The notes below the pieces were generated by a model. That model did not search any database, had not been told where the DNA came from, and saw only the letters and a program-made list of their open reading frames with translations. From Chryseobacterium daecheongense (lineage in GTDB: Bacteria; Bacteroidota; Bacteroidia; Flavobacteriales; Weeksellaceae): 64,000 nt of DNA. The stretch is from the NCBI GenBank assembly GCA_027920525.1, contig CP115858.1, forward strand, positions 2,294,001-2,358,000. Reading direction: 5' to 3'. The position numbers were made by a program, and so were the translations under genes. This document shows, in pieces, positions 25,445-47,033 of the stretch; position 1 is the first letter of the stretch; each line of letters begins with the position of its first letter.

Positions 25445-27180
<1,736 letters not shown>

Positions 27181-27201
27181 TCTTAACTGCTATAAATAAA
27201 T

Positions 27202-27234
27202 AAAACCGTTCTGCTTTTGTGGAGCGGTTTTTTG
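27202..27234 (+). terminator. groEL terminator
   Basis: The stem AAAACCGTTC / GAGCGGTTTT (one G-T pair) encloses a 10-nt loop and ends in a T-run. Confidence 0.88.
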
Positions 27235-27290
27235 TTTGAATTACGGTTTTCCGTAAGGCAATAATATATTTATAAGTATATTTATATTTT

Positions 27291-27357
27291 AATGATGGCA
27301 ATAGATAGCTAAAGTCAAAATAGCATTGATGCAGTATCTATTATCATTATTGATGCA
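27291..27357. repeat. Imperfect inverted and direct repeat before the NACHT gene
   Basis: AATGATGGCAATAGATA (27291-27307) is complementary, apart from a 3-nt insertion, to TATCTATTATCATT (27335-27348). The 9-mer ATTGATGCA occurs twice (27325-27333, 27349-27357). It lies at the left edge of the accessory island and may be regulatory or a junction scar. Confidence 0.5.
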
Positions 27358-27413
27358 ATGCGTAAATTAGAAAATTAGGTGTAATTTTAAAAACCGACCA
27401 CTTTAAAATAAAT

Positions 27414-29261
27414 ATGGACTTGAATGATATTCTTACAGAAAAATCTGTTGAAATAATTATTGGAAATGGAATTAAAAATGTAAGTAAAGTTTTTGATACT
27501 TTATATAAATCCACAATTAAAGCAGCAAAGAAAAAACTAAAAAAAGATGAATTTGAAGAATTTAAAGAAATATATAACTTTCAAATAGAAGAAGAAAAAG
27601 TATTAAATCAAATTAAGCATAATGTTCAAGTTAGTTTAAACTGGGCAAGTGAAATTAATTTTGGAGCTGCTTTAAAATCAAAATCATTAAAAAAAGTTTT
27701 TGTTGATATAGATTTATATTTATCACCTTTAAAAAATCGATTTGATGTTGATGAAAAAACGAAGACAATAAGTTCCAAAAAAATTTTTGAAGATATTTAT
27801 AAGAACATTATAATTTATGGTGGTGCGGGTGCAGGTAAAACAACACTTTTAAAGAATTTCTATCTAGAATTTTTGAATTCTGAAAATAAAAACAACTTCT
27901 CTTGCCCATTAATGATTAGGTTCAGAGAGATTGATTATGATACACATTATAAAAATGAAAATTTCGGTCTTTACAAAATCTTACTTGATATTTTAGGGAT
28001 TGAAATTAATTTTCCTCATAAATATAATGAATCATTTCCCTATGAATATTATAATAGTATTAAACAAACAATTCTTAATTTTTTCAACAACACAAATATT
28101 CTATTAGTAGCAGATGGGTTTGACGAAATACCAGATTTAGATTTAAAAAAAAGAATTGAAAAAGAGTTTGAAGAATTATCATTATCTCTAATAGATTCGA
28201 AATTTATAATGACTTCAAGAAGTAATGATTTCAATTTGAAATTAAACAACACTGACACGTTTGAAATATGCTCATTAAATGACAAGCAAATTAAATCTCT
28301 AATTAAAAAATGGTTAAATAGTCCTACAAAAGCCGAAGATTTATTTCAAAAAATAAAAATTTCACCATTTTATGATACTTCAATTAGACCTTTGACTTTA
28401 TCACATTTATGTGCAATATATGAACGAAAAAAAAATATACCTGATAAACCTAAATATGTATATGATTTTGTTGTAAAACTATTACTTGAAGATTGGGATC
28501 AAGAAAGAAATATTACTAGACCTTCAAATTATGCTAATTTTTACATAGAAAAAAAGAAAGACTTTTTATCACATCTTTCATTTTGGTTAACGTATCATCT
28601 TAATAAAAATGTTTTTAATAGTGATGATATTAGAAAATGTTACAATGATATCTATATATCACATGATTTACCAAAATCACAAGCTAAGAAAGTTGTACTA
28701 GAACTAGAAAATCACACAGGTTTATTAGTACAAGTTGGTTATAATTATTTTCAGTTTTCACATAAATCATTACAAGAATATTTAACAGCAAAATATATAT
28801 CGCAAACTCCAAAAATTCCTGAATTTGATGTAATTCAGAATTTACCTAATGAACTAGCCATTTGTGTGAGTTTGTCTTCTCAACCCAATATATATTTTGA
28901 GTATTTTATCAATTCATATATGAAGTTTGACTCTAGGTTTTGGGATATTTTTTTCACTAGATTAGTAGATGAAAAACCAGATTTTGATAATAGTCACTAC
29001 GCTTTGTTATTTTTCTTTATTTATATTAACAAAAATAAAGATGAAAATTCATTAGTTACATTTACAAAGCTAATTGAGACTACAAATATTGCAAGGACAT
29101 ATAGACAATTTGAAAAGTTTTACAACAAAAGTTCTACTTACGAAAATGAAATTGAGTACTTATTTAAAGATCTAAATATTCCTTTGGATCGACGAAGTGG
29201 CCAACCAGGTAGAATATTTATAAGTAAAGATTTAATTGACAAAATAAAAGACTACGCCTAA
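27414..29261 (+). CDS. NACHT-domain STAND NTPase (probable antiphage protein)
   Basis: NACHT STAND ATPases are signal-sensing switches; bacterial members act in phage defence. The 615-residue protein has an N-terminal helical region (1-125) of unknown type and Walker A GGAGAGKTT (136-144). Walker B follows in ILLVADGFDEIPD (229-241, with the NACHT-type second acidic residue), then a sensor-1 stretch KFIMTSRSND (263-272) and a winged-helix-like part (YNYFQFSHKSLQEYLTAKYI near 460). The C-terminal 150 residues match no known repeat. No nuclease, TIR or protease effector was seen. The gene is visibly more AT-rich than its neighbours and ends inside an attC-like palindrome. Confidence 0.85.
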   Translation: MDLNDILTEKSVEIIIGNGIKNVSKVFDTLYKSTIKAAKKKLKKDEFEEFKEIYNFQIEEEKVLNQIKHNVQVSLNWASEINFGAALKSKSLKKVFVDIDLYLSPLKNRFDVDEKTKTISSKKIFEDIYKNIIIYGGAGAGKTTLLKNFYLEFLNSENKNNFSCPLMIRFREIDYDTHYKNENFGLYKILLDILGIEINFPHKYNESFPYEYYNSIKQTILNFFNNTNILLVADGFDEIPDLDLKKRIEKEFEELSLSLIDSKFIMTSRSNDFNLKLNNTDTFEICSLNDKQIKSLIKKWLNSPTKAEDLFQKIKISPFYDTSIRPLTLSHLCAIYERKKNIPDKPKYVYDFVVKLLLEDWDQERNITRPSNYANFYIEKKKDFLSHLSFWLTYHLNKNVFNSDDIRKCYNDIYISHDLPKSQAKKVVLELENHTGLLVQVGYNYFQFSHKSLQEYLTAKYISQTPKIPEFDVIQNLPNELAICVSLSSQPNIYFEYFINSYMKFDSRFWDIFFTRLVDEKPDFDNSHYALLFFFIYINKNKDENSLVTFTKLIETTNIARTYRQFEKFYNKSSTYENEIEYLFKDLNIPLDRRSGQPGRIFISKDLIDKIKDYA

Positions 29262-29265
29262 TATC

Positions 29266-29447
29266 GTTTTGGCGAAATGGCGGTTTAAGGGAAAAATAGA
29301 AAGTTCGTGGATTTTTATCCGCAACAGCTTTATATATTTCTTTTTTCATAATTTAGTAAATAATTAAAAGCTGTTGCTTAAATTAGTGCAAAATAGAAAA
29401 TTTAGGTTTTCTAATCCGCCACTATCGCCAAGGCGTGGGACGTTATC
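29266..29447 (+). repeat. attC-like two-armed palindrome, copy 1
   Basis: Outer arms TTGGCGAAATGGCGG (29269-29283) and CCGCCACTATCGCCAA (29416-29431) pair with few mismatches. Inner arms GCAACAGCTTT (29321-29331) and AAAGCTGTTGC (29367-29377) pair perfectly round an AT-rich loop containing AATTTAGT. GCCTAAT at the end of the NACHT gene and GTTATCTGC at 29442-29450 are in the positions of the outer simple sites of an attC, though not canonical. The same plan is repeated after the next gene. Confidence 0.65.
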
Positions 29448-29456
29448 TGCAAGCTT

Positions 29457-30551
29457 ATGACAAACAATATCGAAAAATTTGAATATAATAATTTCACGTA
29501 CTTAATCGATCATTCAAGTCAAGGAAATATACCAGAAATAATCCATAAACAGAGTATTCCTGATTCAATTTTTAAGTTTTATTCTATATCTAAATATAGT
29601 ATTGAAGCATTATCTCAAAATTATCTGTACGCATCACACCCAATAGAATTAAATGACATTTTAGATAGTAGCCCTTTCTTAATCTATTCTTCACGACCAA
29701 TTTCATTTGAAATATATGAGAGATTTTATAAAGACATTTTCAGGTCAAGAAAAGAATTGGAAGATTTTTATACTGATGATGTTGAATCTAGTCAGTGTAA
29801 GAAAATCATTAACCATATGTATAATATGTCTTTCAATTTGTTGGGTATAATTTCACTGTCAGAAAGAGAAAATAATACTTTGATGTGGCCTCATTATACT
29901 CAAGAAAAAGGATTCCAAATCAAATTCAATGTAAAAAGTTTACTTAAAAGTGTCAAAGATAAACTTAATGATGATGATGGTGAACTCTTTGGGTTTCATC
30001 CAATTAATTACACGAATGAACTTAAACCAATTGATGTTTCAAGTTTTCGCTCTTTTCATATTCCAACAGCCTATGCGTCAAATATAAAACTTAATGATTG
30101 GCAGTATGAAAAAGAATGGAGAATAATAGCGAGTAAAAAGAATATGGGAATTCCATACTCAAAATCTGGACTAAATTTAATTCCTGATCATAAGGGAATT
30201 GATGGACATAGACAAATAAAATATAATTCAGAAGATATTGAAGAGATTTCTGTGGGACAGAATTTCATTACAGCTAGAGATTTTGAAATAGAATGGATTA
30301 TAGATGACAAAGAATTTATTATTACTGTTAAAAGAAACAGCGATGAGCAATATATCGCTATATGTAAATTCTTAGACATTATTTCACGGAAATACAGTGA
30401 TAAATTCTATTTTTCTGGTGCAAAATATGAATTAAACACTACCAATGAACCTTATCTAATCAGAACTAAAGAAAAAATGAATATTGAAAAAATAGAAGAA
30501 GCAAAATATAAATTAATTAGAACTTTTGAAATTATCAAATTGTTGAATTAA
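29457..30551 (+). CDS. DUF2971-family protein
   Basis: The 364-residue protein fits DUF2971: an N-terminal FKFYS.x..S.EAL pattern (39-51), LYASHPIELNDILD (57-70), GIISLSERENNTLMWPHYTQ (130-149), KGFQIKF, and WQYEKEWRI. The family is soluble, of unknown chemistry, and often found in variable or defence regions. It stands alone between two attC-like palindromes in the same orientation as the NACHT gene, like a one-gene cassette. No promoter match was seen directly upstream. Confidence 0.82.
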   Translation: MTNNIEKFEYNNFTYLIDHSSQGNIPEIIHKQSIPDSIFKFYSISKYSIEALSQNYLYASHPIELNDILDSSPFLIYSSRPISFEIYERFYKDIFRSRKELEDFYTDDVESSQCKKIINHMYNMSFNLLGIISLSERENNTLMWPHYTQEKGFQIKFNVKSLLKSVKDKLNDDDGELFGFHPINYTNELKPIDVSSFRSFHIPTAYASNIKLNDWQYEKEWRIIASKKNMGIPYSKSGLNLIPDHKGIDGHRQIKYNSEDIEEISVGQNFITARDFEIEWIIDDKEFIITVKRNSDEQYIAICKFLDIISRKYSDKFYFSGAKYELNTTNEPYLIRTKEKMNIEKIEEAKYKLIRTFEIIKLLN

Positions 30552-30557
30552 ACCTGC

Positions 30558-30740
30558 AGCTAAAATTGTATTGGCAAAATATGGGTGAAGTACAAAAAGT
30601 AGAAAAATTTGTTCTTCTTGCCGCCGATTCATATTAATTTTATTAATTTAGTTCTAAGAAAAGGCATCGGCTACGTTTAGTCTTTTTTGAATATTTTGTT
30701 CTTCAAAAGCCCACACTTCGCCAATACTTTTTCTGTTAGC
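30558..30740 (+). repeat. attC-like two-armed palindrome, copy 2
   Basis: Outer arms AGCTAA (30559-30564) with GTATTGGC (30568-30575), and GCCAATAC (30720-30727) with TTAGCT (30736-30741), pair in nested fashion. TGGG/CCCA extends the pairing with a short mismatch. Inner arms GCCGAT (30623-30628) and ATCGGC (30666-30671) enclose an AT-rich loop with AATTTAGT, shared with copy 1. The sequence differs from copy 1 but the architecture is the same. Confidence 0.6.
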
Positions 30741-30829
30741 TTTCATTGCAAAACGAACAGAATGTTATTCTATTACCTGATAGATTAATAATCACAAATC
30801 TCAACTTTCGTCAGGATTTCTCATCTATT

Positions 30830-31057
30830 TTAAAATCTAAGCCTAGCTAGTTCATGTATTGTTGAAATTCTTAAATCAACTTCCCCTTTTTCAATTTTAC
30901 TGATATTGCTATGATCTACATCACATTTCTGAGCTAACTCCCGATAGCTTAATCCCATCTTCTTTCTAAATTTTTCAACTCTTTTACCAAAAACTATTCG
31001 AAATTCAATTCTATTCATTGCAATATCATTATCAAAGCAATTAGAAACTTCGCACAT
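30830..31057 (-). CDS. XRE-family HTH regulator, probably shortened by a frameshift
   Basis: This is a small Cro/CI-type DNA-binding protein of about 75 residues. The helix-turn-helix is clear: LSYRELAQKCDVDHSNISKIEKGEVD. The frame ends abruptly in ISTIHELARLRF. Shifting frame after HELA continues with GLDFKIDEKS and a stop at 30811, which is how such proteins normally end, so a 1-2 nt indel near 30838-30843 is likely. The ATG at 31057 overlaps the upstream XRE stop by one base (TGATG); a GTG at 31060 is also possible. It is cotranscribed with the upstream XRE gene. Confidence 0.75.
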   Translation of the reverse strand: MCEVSNCFDNDIAMNRIEFRIVFGKRVEKFRKKMGLSYRELAQKCDVDHSNISKIEKGEVDLRISTIHELARLRF

Positions 31058-31275
31058 CACGCCAAATCCACAAGCTCTGACAAAGAAACCTCCAAAGCGT
31101 TTGCAACTTCAAGCAACGTATAAAGCGTAGGATTCACTTTTCCATTTTCTAATTTTTCAATTGCCTGACGATCTTTATTGCAAGCCCGAGCAAGGTCTGC
31201 TTGGCTCCAGCCCTTTTGCTCACGAAGTTCGATTATTCGTTTACCAAGTTCTTTTTTTAGTGTATCTCTAGTCAC
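31057..31275 (-). CDS. XRE-family HTH regulator
   Basis: A 72-residue Cro/CI-like regulator whose helix-turn-helix (WSQADLARACNKDRQAIEKL, then GKVNPTLYTLLEVANAL) fills the whole protein. The start codon is GTG at 31275. It is the first gene of a two-gene XRE operon and faces the SymE-like gene across about 95 bp filled with TGTCA/TGACA half-sites. Repression of both promoters by this protein, alone or with the second XRE, is inferred from this layout. Confidence 0.85.
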   Translation of the reverse strand: MTRDTLKKELGKRIIELREQKGWSQADLARACNKDRQAIEKLENGKVNPTLYTLLEVANALEVSLSELVDLA

Positions 31276-31283
31276 AAATCAAA

Positions 31284-31369
31284 TGTCAGCTAATTTGTTG
31301 ACAAAAATGTCATATAAAAAGTTGACATTTTTAAATTTTAATCTATATTTGTCATATAATTATACGACA
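31284..31369. promoter_or_regulatory. Operator array between XRE operon and symE-like gene
   Basis: Five TGTCA/TGACA half-sites lie at 31284, 31299, 31308, 31323 and 31350, in alternating orientation. The last belongs to a near-perfect 20-bp palindrome, TGTCATATAATTATACGACA (31350-31369), centred just after the -7 box of the symE-like promoter. The spacing suits a dimeric HTH repressor. Confidence 0.7.
31322..31351 (+). promoter_or_regulatory. Promoter of the symE-like gene
   Basis: TTG (31322-31324), 19 bp and TATATTTG (31344-31351) match the Bacteroidota consensus exactly. Initiation near 31358 places the GTG at 31370 as the first start codon, excluding longer frames. Confidence 0.8.
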
Positions 31370-31555
31370 GTGGCAAATCTAAGAAAGCTTAAAATTTACA
31401 CTAAATATCAAATTAGGACATATGGTTTGATAACTATTCCAGAAATTAGACTTAAGGGAAAATGGCTTGAGAAGCTTGGGTTTAAAGAAGGAAAAATAAT
31501 CAACATAGAGCAAAAGAAAAATAAACTGATAATTACACTTGACAATAAAAAGTAA
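31370..31555 (+). CDS. SymE-like toxin
   Basis: The 61-residue product contains the SymE signature IPEIRLKGKWLEKLGF (residues 23-38), followed by a basic strand (IEQKKNKLIITL). SymE is an AbrB-fold-derived toxin that condenses nucleic acid in E. coli, where it is held down by LexA and an antisense RNA. Here the start is a GTG chosen because the promoter ends just before it. Instead of SymR-like control, a divergent XRE-XRE operon and a multi-site operator are present. Whether it is toxic is not known. Confidence 0.82.
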   Translation: MANLRKLKIYTKYQIRTYGLITIPEIRLKGKWLEKLGFKEGKIINIEQKKNKLIITLDNKK

Positions 31556-46721: not shown

Positions 46722-46865
46722 AACATCCTGATATCCTTAATTAATTTCAAAAATCATTTCTCATTTCAAAAAACTTCCCGAAATTAGCAGCCTGTGCGTT
46801 AAATACTAATTAATGAATTAAAAAAACAAGTAAACAAGACATACAGTAAAACTTAGCATAAGTTT

Positions 46866-46985
46866 TCTTCGGGGCAGGGTGAAATTCCCTACCGGCGGTT
46901 ATAGTCCGCGACTCCTTTTTCATTAAAGGACTGATTTGGTGAAATTCCAAAACCGACAGTTAAAGTCTGGATGGGAGAAGAAAAT
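46866..46985 (+). ncRNA. FMN riboswitch (RFN element)
   Basis: The conserved blocks are present in order: CGGGGCAGGGTGAAATTCCC, ACCGGCGG, AGTCCGCGA, then GGTGAAATTCC, ACCGACAG, AGTCTGGATGGGAGA. FMN binding should lower expression of ribB, whose ATG lies about 90 nt downstream. The 140 bp before it, back to the preceding gene, hold no gene. Confidence 0.97.
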
Positions 46986-47033
46986 GAAACGATCAATAAG
47001 CTTGCCTTATGGACTTATTGGTGCGTATTTCAT
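46984..47033 (+). promoter_or_regulatory. Expression platform of the FMN riboswitch
   Basis: ATGAAA (46984-46989)/TTTCAT (47028-47033) and AATAAG/CTTATT (46995-47000, 47014-47019) form a two-part hairpin directly after the aptamer. No T-run follows, so control may be by translation or an atypical terminator. Confidence 0.5.

Follow-up and report, generated by a model that had tools for sequence, protein, structure and literature searches.

A groEL-linked pair of putative gene cassettes

The window analyzed here is a stretch of 64,000 nucleotides from Chryseobacterium daecheongense (GenBank assembly GCA_027920525.1, contig CP115858.1, positions 2,294,001 to 2,358,000 of the forward strand), in which groEL, an attI-like region, a cassette with a NACHT gene, an attC-like element (attC1), a cassette with a DUF2971 gene and a second element (attC2) succeed one another, with integrase absent. 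The first open reading frame of this series (25555..27180, plus strand), which we take from its sequence to be groEL, is a landmark adjoining the cassettes and not itself a cassette; its 3′ end was matched in 146 of 148 congeneric genomes. Behind it lies the attI-like region (27204..27374, plus strand), missed by the preliminary description, with the motif GCAATGCGTAAATTAGAA at 27355-27372 and a predicted crossover at 27374^27375. Allowing at most one mismatch, this motif occurs once in the window's genome, directly before the NACHT cassette. As an attI-like site is thus present at 27355-27374, the NACHT gene can be read as a complete cassette. The same two cassettes are found at 95% in the congeneric genome G048, where the core at attI is GTT instead of the ATT of the window.

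Cassette 1 (27375..29442, plus strand) begins behind attI, ends at the attC1 core and carries a NACHT NTPase gene (27414..29261, plus strand; 615 aa; PF05729, E 6.6e-10), the stop codon of which sits within the R″ box of attC1. Cassette 2 (29443..30735, plus strand) carries a DUF2971 gene (29457..30551, plus strand; 364 aa; PF11185, E 3.7e-8) that matches the PADLOC candidate family PDC-S31 (E 2.1e-26); for the NACHT gene PADLOC returned just a weak mad8 match. On these family matches (NACHT; PDC-S31), we consider both to be candidate defense genes.

As the preliminary description had it, an attC-like palindrome lies behind each of the two genes, NACHT and DUF2971, on the same strand, and the two palindromes have in common the loop motif that it pointed to (15 nt, 87%). 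Its range, which begins at 29266, leaves out the left part of element 1, and each element is about 200 bp long, compared with the 160-180 bp that it gave. attC1, which has relatives in other genomes, spans about 29250..29454 (plus strand), with R″ at 29250-29262 and R′ at 29442-29454, and attC2, the last site of the array, about 30553..30747 (plus strand), with blastn matches of 68-81% to the array of genome G079 (below). A covariance model of the family (R1) scores them at 169 and 137 bits, both elements being in its training set; a second model built without the window elements (R2) has two matches in the window's genome (best E 3.1e-7). By blastn, element 1 is a single occurrence in its own 4.86-Mb one-contig genome. 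A search of that genome with a 16-bp pattern at up to three mismatches was uninformative, with 44 matches and 44 for the reversed control. Folded as single-stranded DNA, element 1 stands well apart from its shuffles (z -3.70; 0/200 as good) and element 2 weakly so (z -1.74; 10/200 as good), so that folding by itself is no proof of element 2. The core triplets of the window have drifted to ATT, AAT and AAA, the last replacing AAC in the R″ core of attC2, and the sites may therefore be inactive. Against Rfam, no family reached its gathering score over the palindromes; the same collection places an FMN riboswitch at 46861-46986 of the window (125 bits).

The loop motif TAATTTAG (29343-29357 and 30638-30652) recurs in elements with different arms. 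It resembles what we take to be the Bacteroidota -7 promoter box; if that reading were true, there would be one promoter per cassette. Beyond the array, a stretch of about 200 bp (30836-31042) has counterparts of about 80-95% identity in dozens of congeneric genomes and is covered by a small helix-turn-helix-like ORF on the minus strand (30830-31057); it lies near integron elements in G107, G136 and G026. A SymE-toxin-like gene (31178-31555) comes right after the array and again near the integrons of G078, G118 and G136.

A family of elements behind different genes

We searched the 148 congeneric genomes with element 1 by blastn and found relatives behind other genes; this single query returned about ten close relatives and hid the breadth of the family. 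In an alignment of 20 elements (the two of the window and 18 relatives), from which the common structure was itself predicted, 16 of 27 pairs show at least one two-sided compensatory change, and the consensus structure keeps the palindrome plan of attC, with R and L boxes and an unpaired spacer. With R1, trained on elements of G000, G003, G079, G081, G099, G110 and G111, 65 of the 148 genomes are positive at E 1e-4 or better, counted among the matches listed from at most 17 candidates scored per genome. Hence, to the question raised by the preliminary description, whether the elements occur only here and with fixed flanking genes, the answer is no on both counts: they stand behind different genes and in arrays. 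The array of G079 (L072-L081) comprises 36 elements at 1731741-1764079, all on one strand, with a slightly altered further element after it. Its first gene is presumably reverse-transcriptase-like and its last pair HigB-HigA-like, and one cassette within it is repeated at 96.6%.

An attI-like motif and a tyrosine recombinase in relatives

No protein in the 148 genomes scores above the cut-off of the integron integrase model TIGR02249. Partial matches at E 1e-30 or better number 18, in 18 of the 148 genomes, and these weak matches led to the integrases described here, for which 17 loci were fetched with 12-20 kb of context; the 18th match, on contig 2 of G079, is of a longer type. On that contig (L110; 57 kb), which is perhaps a mobile carrier, a Flavobacterium-type integrase of 347 aa is accompanied by two attC-like elements. 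In 13 of the 17 loci the elements lie upstream of the integrase and point away from it, in a divergent layout (12 by R1 on the fetched stretch, that of G061 by genome scan), and in L105 they lie on its other side; in L099, L100 and L101, the second of which is at a contig start, R1 finds no element in the fetched stretch. Thus, the linked tyrosine recombinase that the preliminary description had asked after exists in relatives.

Between integrase and first cassette, these relatives conserve the motif GCAWTGCGTAAATTWGRA-n-GTT, and in 11 of the 12 element-bearing loci conservation ends at the GTT, the exception being L103, where the best match lies further on. At up to one mismatch, 14 of the 17 loci have the motif 107-156 bp ahead of the integrase start, and at up to two mismatches all 17 have it; for L106, whose integrase is broken, the distance is measured from a false start. 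It is found in 89 of the 148 congeneric genomes, as against five hits in total for the reversed control.

The gene groEL is a recurrent neighbor of the system in relatives. The motif lies at most 250 bp downstream of a full-length groEL in nine of the 148 genomes (G000, G020, G098, G104, G108, G113, G114, G122 and G127), and six of the 17 integrase loci are within about 16 kb of groEL (G026, G078, G102, G107, G118 and G136), the other 11 being elsewhere; in G107, groEL is followed by the integrase, tail to tail with it, and then by attI and the cassettes. In the window, as the preliminary description had stated, there is no trace of integrase (tblastn of 15 integrases, best E 0.15). With attI and cassettes beside groEL and the integrase absent, the most suitable reading of the window is an integron that occupies a recurrent location and lacks its integrase. 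The integrase was probably lost here, rather than never present, because relatives have groEL, integrase and attI in that order. Genome G112, of the same species, was considered as an empty site and rejected, as it has another gene at that place; a clean empty site was not found.

Extra copies of the groEL 3′ end (window 26980-27237) occur in L060, L103, L104, L133, L134, L136-L139, L142, L143, L149 and L150, in tandem in L143, L149 and L150, and some are then followed by the attI motif and another gene. These groEL tail-attI-gene units resemble a second mode of gene stacking.

The recombinase and its affinities

Fifteen of the 17 integrases are intact (274-280 aa), those of L097 and L106 being broken. 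The arginine-histidine-tyrosine signature expected of such enzymes is invariant in the alignment of the 15. The 15 group together (100/97) in a tree of 57 recombinases whose deep branches are unsettled and whose bootstrap did not converge; the tree contains two wrongly extracted ORFs that are not recombinases (G079C2_308a and b), and L164 and L222 were dropped for their many stops. The best match in the PDB is XerA (5hxy), the nearest by sequence and by fold (TM about 0.5).

Could the cassettes be moved by host XerC/XerD or another recombinase, the linked enzyme being a passenger? No such integrase is encoded in the genome of the window; of the three PF00589 matches there, two proteins pair in the tree with XerC/XerD-like recombinases of G079 and one is distant. 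Nor does any integrase adjoin the large G079 array, and in L063 and L070 another ORF, apparently recombinase-like, lies 2-3 kb from an element. Against these points, the enzyme sits beside attI in 17 of 17 loci and near the elements in the named genera treated below, and G079 has two enzymes of this type elsewhere (43.8% and 46.7% identity to their best congeneric match), so that action in trans is possible. We consequently regard a passenger role as unlikely.

A second alternative, to which we give still less credence, is that this is a classical integron of the IntI family whose array has lost its integrase (CALIN). The layout and the crossover triplet are the same, and among the NCBIfam models the best match of the four enzymes scanned was NF040815, named site-specific tyrosine recombinase/integron integrase, two of them being over its cut-off. 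What speaks against IntI, beyond the lack of any TIGR02249 match above cut-off in the genus, is that in these four enzymes this model matches in two stretches, at 204-215 bits versus the 265 needed, and that the IntI-specific insert is missing: 62 residues of Vibrio IntI (2a3v) face 19 here, and the predicted model has no helix at that place (pLDDT 78.8, pTM 0.59). The sites differ as well, bearing out the non-canonical simple sites of the preliminary description. Across 159 elements, R′ is canonical in seven, R″ in six and both (GTTRRRY together with RYYYAAC) in none, with the triplets GTT and AAC being kept in 148 and 149 of them, respectively.

Distribution across Bacteroidota

A scan of named genomes with the integrase alignment gave at least 80 loci. 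In the 80 listed, R1, which is trained on the genus of the window, finds 23 places at E < 0.001 in 11 loci, all of them on the strand of the integrase and downstream of it. R2, built from 45 short elements, has 63 matches at E < 0.1 in the same loci, 62 on the integrase strand and downstream and one (L212) on the other strand; at E < 0.001 it is positive in 20 of the 80, of which 11 are independent, as nine of the listed loci contribute to R2. The element-bearing loci include those of Flavobacterium psychrophilum, F. palustre, F. aciduliphilum, Algoriphagus, Arundinibacter, Algibacter, Zunongwangia and one Fusibacter (Bacillota). Four integrase ORFs listed for the named genera are 345-347 aa long, and in the genera checked the integrase is oriented with the cassettes, as against away from them in the genus of the window.

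At the level of the phylum, 182 of 395 Bacteroidota genomes, from 98 of 170 genera, carry R2 matches at E 1e-4 or better, counted among the matches listed from at most eight candidates scored per genome. Among 24 control genomes from outside Bacteroidota that were reached via integrase loci, two match R2, both of them metagenome bins. The Fusibacter genome has no R2 match at E 1e-4, and the archaeal integrase loci among those listed have none at E < 0.1. Downstream of the Fusibacter integrase there are three weak 175-bp element-like matches (L185, 11067-13784).

Cassette ends and exchange

In the G079 array, each cassette opens with 13 bases (mostly GTTRnnnGnAAnn) that agree with the R″ box of its own element when that box is read as reverse complement. 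Without position 11, the mean match is 8.86 of nine positions (n=35; 9/9 in 31 of 35), as against 4.86 for other pairings. In all 35 cassettes, position 11 itself sets an A at one end against a G (as complement) at the other; when it is counted, which sets a ceiling of 8, the own-cassette mean is 7.89 (reached in 0/10000 permutations), compared with 4.53 in other pairings and 4.46 between both ends of a single element. Of 84 cassettes from other loci, including those of Flavobacterium, Arundinibacter and Algibacter and the window's own, 49 match at 8/9 or better, as against 2.3% of other pairings (mean 7.02 versus 4.20; 0/10000 permutations), and 24 fall below 7. This set draws on 123 elements, namely 24 of 28 R1 matches from the named integrase loci and 99 of 167 from the fetched loci; set aside were second matches, on the opposite strand, to palindromes already counted, along with one from L064, the weakest named-locus match and L068, which is within the G079 array, and long intervals where an element was probably missed were kept. 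In the window, both cassettes match at 7/9 positions and have the usual A/G at position 11, cassette 1 as judged by eye. In classical integrons such a match of cassette ends follows from excision as a circle, and the ends found here are as circular intermediates would give.

We then compared 120 cassettes with all fetched loci and set the junctions of four shared cassettes side by side. A cassette that stands behind attI in G011 and behind attC in G116 is 98.7% identical between the two and diverges by eye at the core (G^TT) on both sides, blastn extending 39 bases past the right core through weak likeness. Another, behind attI in G101 and G041 and within the array of G110, starts at the core within two bases, its match ending before attC. 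The remaining two are common to the arrays of G110 and G011 (90%) and to G011 and G167, a genome of another family (89%, with divergence at the core by eye). Left divergence thus falls at the core or within one or two bases of it in three of the four, between attI and attC contexts or between families, and right ends are shown for three of the four; other shared-cassette matches run into the neighbors or stop short, so that both boundaries are not seen in every one. Judged by these junctions, cassettes appear to have been exchanged as units with the boundary at G^TT. The weakest of the alternatives, that the elements are MITE- or REP-like palindromic repeats or long terminators that insert or arise behind genes while the genes themselves stay unexchanged, would account for long palindromes at gene 3′ ends and for the genomes with just one or two of them, and is scarcely credible, refuted in the main by the end-match tests (in G079 the ends match across the gene, at a mean of 7.89, and not across the element, at 4.46) and by the junctions, as whole cassettes are shared with differing neighbors and the same cassette in different places diverges at the core, while attI and recombinase are linked and elements were not found to move independently of the neighboring gene.

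A probable integron remnant and the system behind it

With a probability of a little under nine in ten, we read the window as a two-cassette integron remnant, with attI beside groEL, NACHT and DUF2971 cassettes each with an attC-like end, and the integrase gone, belonging to a system found across Bacteroidota in which recombination would be carried out by a XerA-like tyrosine recombinase that has no IntI-specific insert. The proposal of a non-classical or remnant Bacteroidota cassette system with defense-like genes in the preliminary description thereby gains support, its defense part from family matches alone. The sites, the arrays, the linkage of the recombinase to attI and to the elements, the matching cassette ends and the boundaries at G^TT are the parts of this system that can be read directly off the sequences. 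As to mechanism, the recombinase would excise cassettes as circles, the attC of which would fold into a hairpin with a long R box containing a fixed A.C mismatch, an asymmetric unpaired spacer (of about three and seven bases) and an L box (GTATTGGC/GCCAATAC); acting on this folded strand, it would then join the cassette circle to the double-stranded attI. Strand choice may be governed by the constant A.C mismatch and the unequal spacer.

Beyond this, we are inclined, if only slightly, toward the idea of a Bacteroidota integron lineage whose integrase captures folded single-stranded cassettes without the additional (I2) domain held necessary for IntI. In such a lineage the strand would be chosen otherwise, by the A.C mismatch in the 13-bp R box and the asymmetric spacer, and it might either have been invented separately, from a XerA-like enzyme, or represent a living stage that precedes the extra domain of IntI, overlooked as survey tools require the I2 domain. 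In their available excerpts, published surveys indeed picked integrases by the IntI-specific domain (PMC2426708, PMC9668308), a filter that would miss the enzymes described here. The phylum, or the Bacteroidetes/Chlorobi group, is counted among integron carriers in the excerpts of PMC8618304 and PMC2426708; the excerpt of PMC9024848 describes, for Bacteroidetes, earlier integrases without cassettes and then one complete integron in Salinibacter ruber, complete integrons being very rare, and that of PMC8352920 does not mention Bacteroidetes among its taxon models. We recognized no published account of this system among the listed titles and starts of abstracts, preprints and most subscription journals being outside this scope, so that one is possibly in print. 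Signs of the system in 182 of 395 Bacteroidota genomes would change the view of integron rarity there and bring to light a large reservoir of mobile single genes, part of it defense-like. An integrase without the extra domain would also make directly testable how Xer-type enzymes became integron integrases, a question raised in the available part of PMC4792948.

Set beside the integron (IntI, attI and attC, including sedentary chromosomal forms as in Vibrio cholerae), the system is alike in having an integrase, an adjoining attI, arrays in which mostly single-gene cassettes run in one direction, attC-like sites built of R and L boxes, a G^TT crossover and cassette ends that match in the circle. 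It differs in that the integrase is without the IntI-specific insert, attI has another sequence, the R box, about 13 bp long, departs from GTTRRRY/RYYYAAC and contains a fixed A.C mismatch, and the integrase shares the orientation of the cassettes in the named genera checked. Like the attC clusters without integrase (CALINs) of IntegronFinder, the window has two attC-like sites and no integrase; unlike them, it keeps an attI, and its sites, which were modeled here with R1 and R2, are of non-canonical sequence. Archaeal XerA-type recombinases provide the nearest solved structure (5hxy) by both sequence and fold, and to our knowledge no cassette arrays accompany them. Finally, as in the integration of CTXphi by XerCD, according to the available part of PMC4792948, a Xer-type enzyme without the I2 domain would act on a folded single strand; CTXphi, however, lacks cassettes, arrays and a dedicated integrase, whereas in the present system enzyme and sites are linked.
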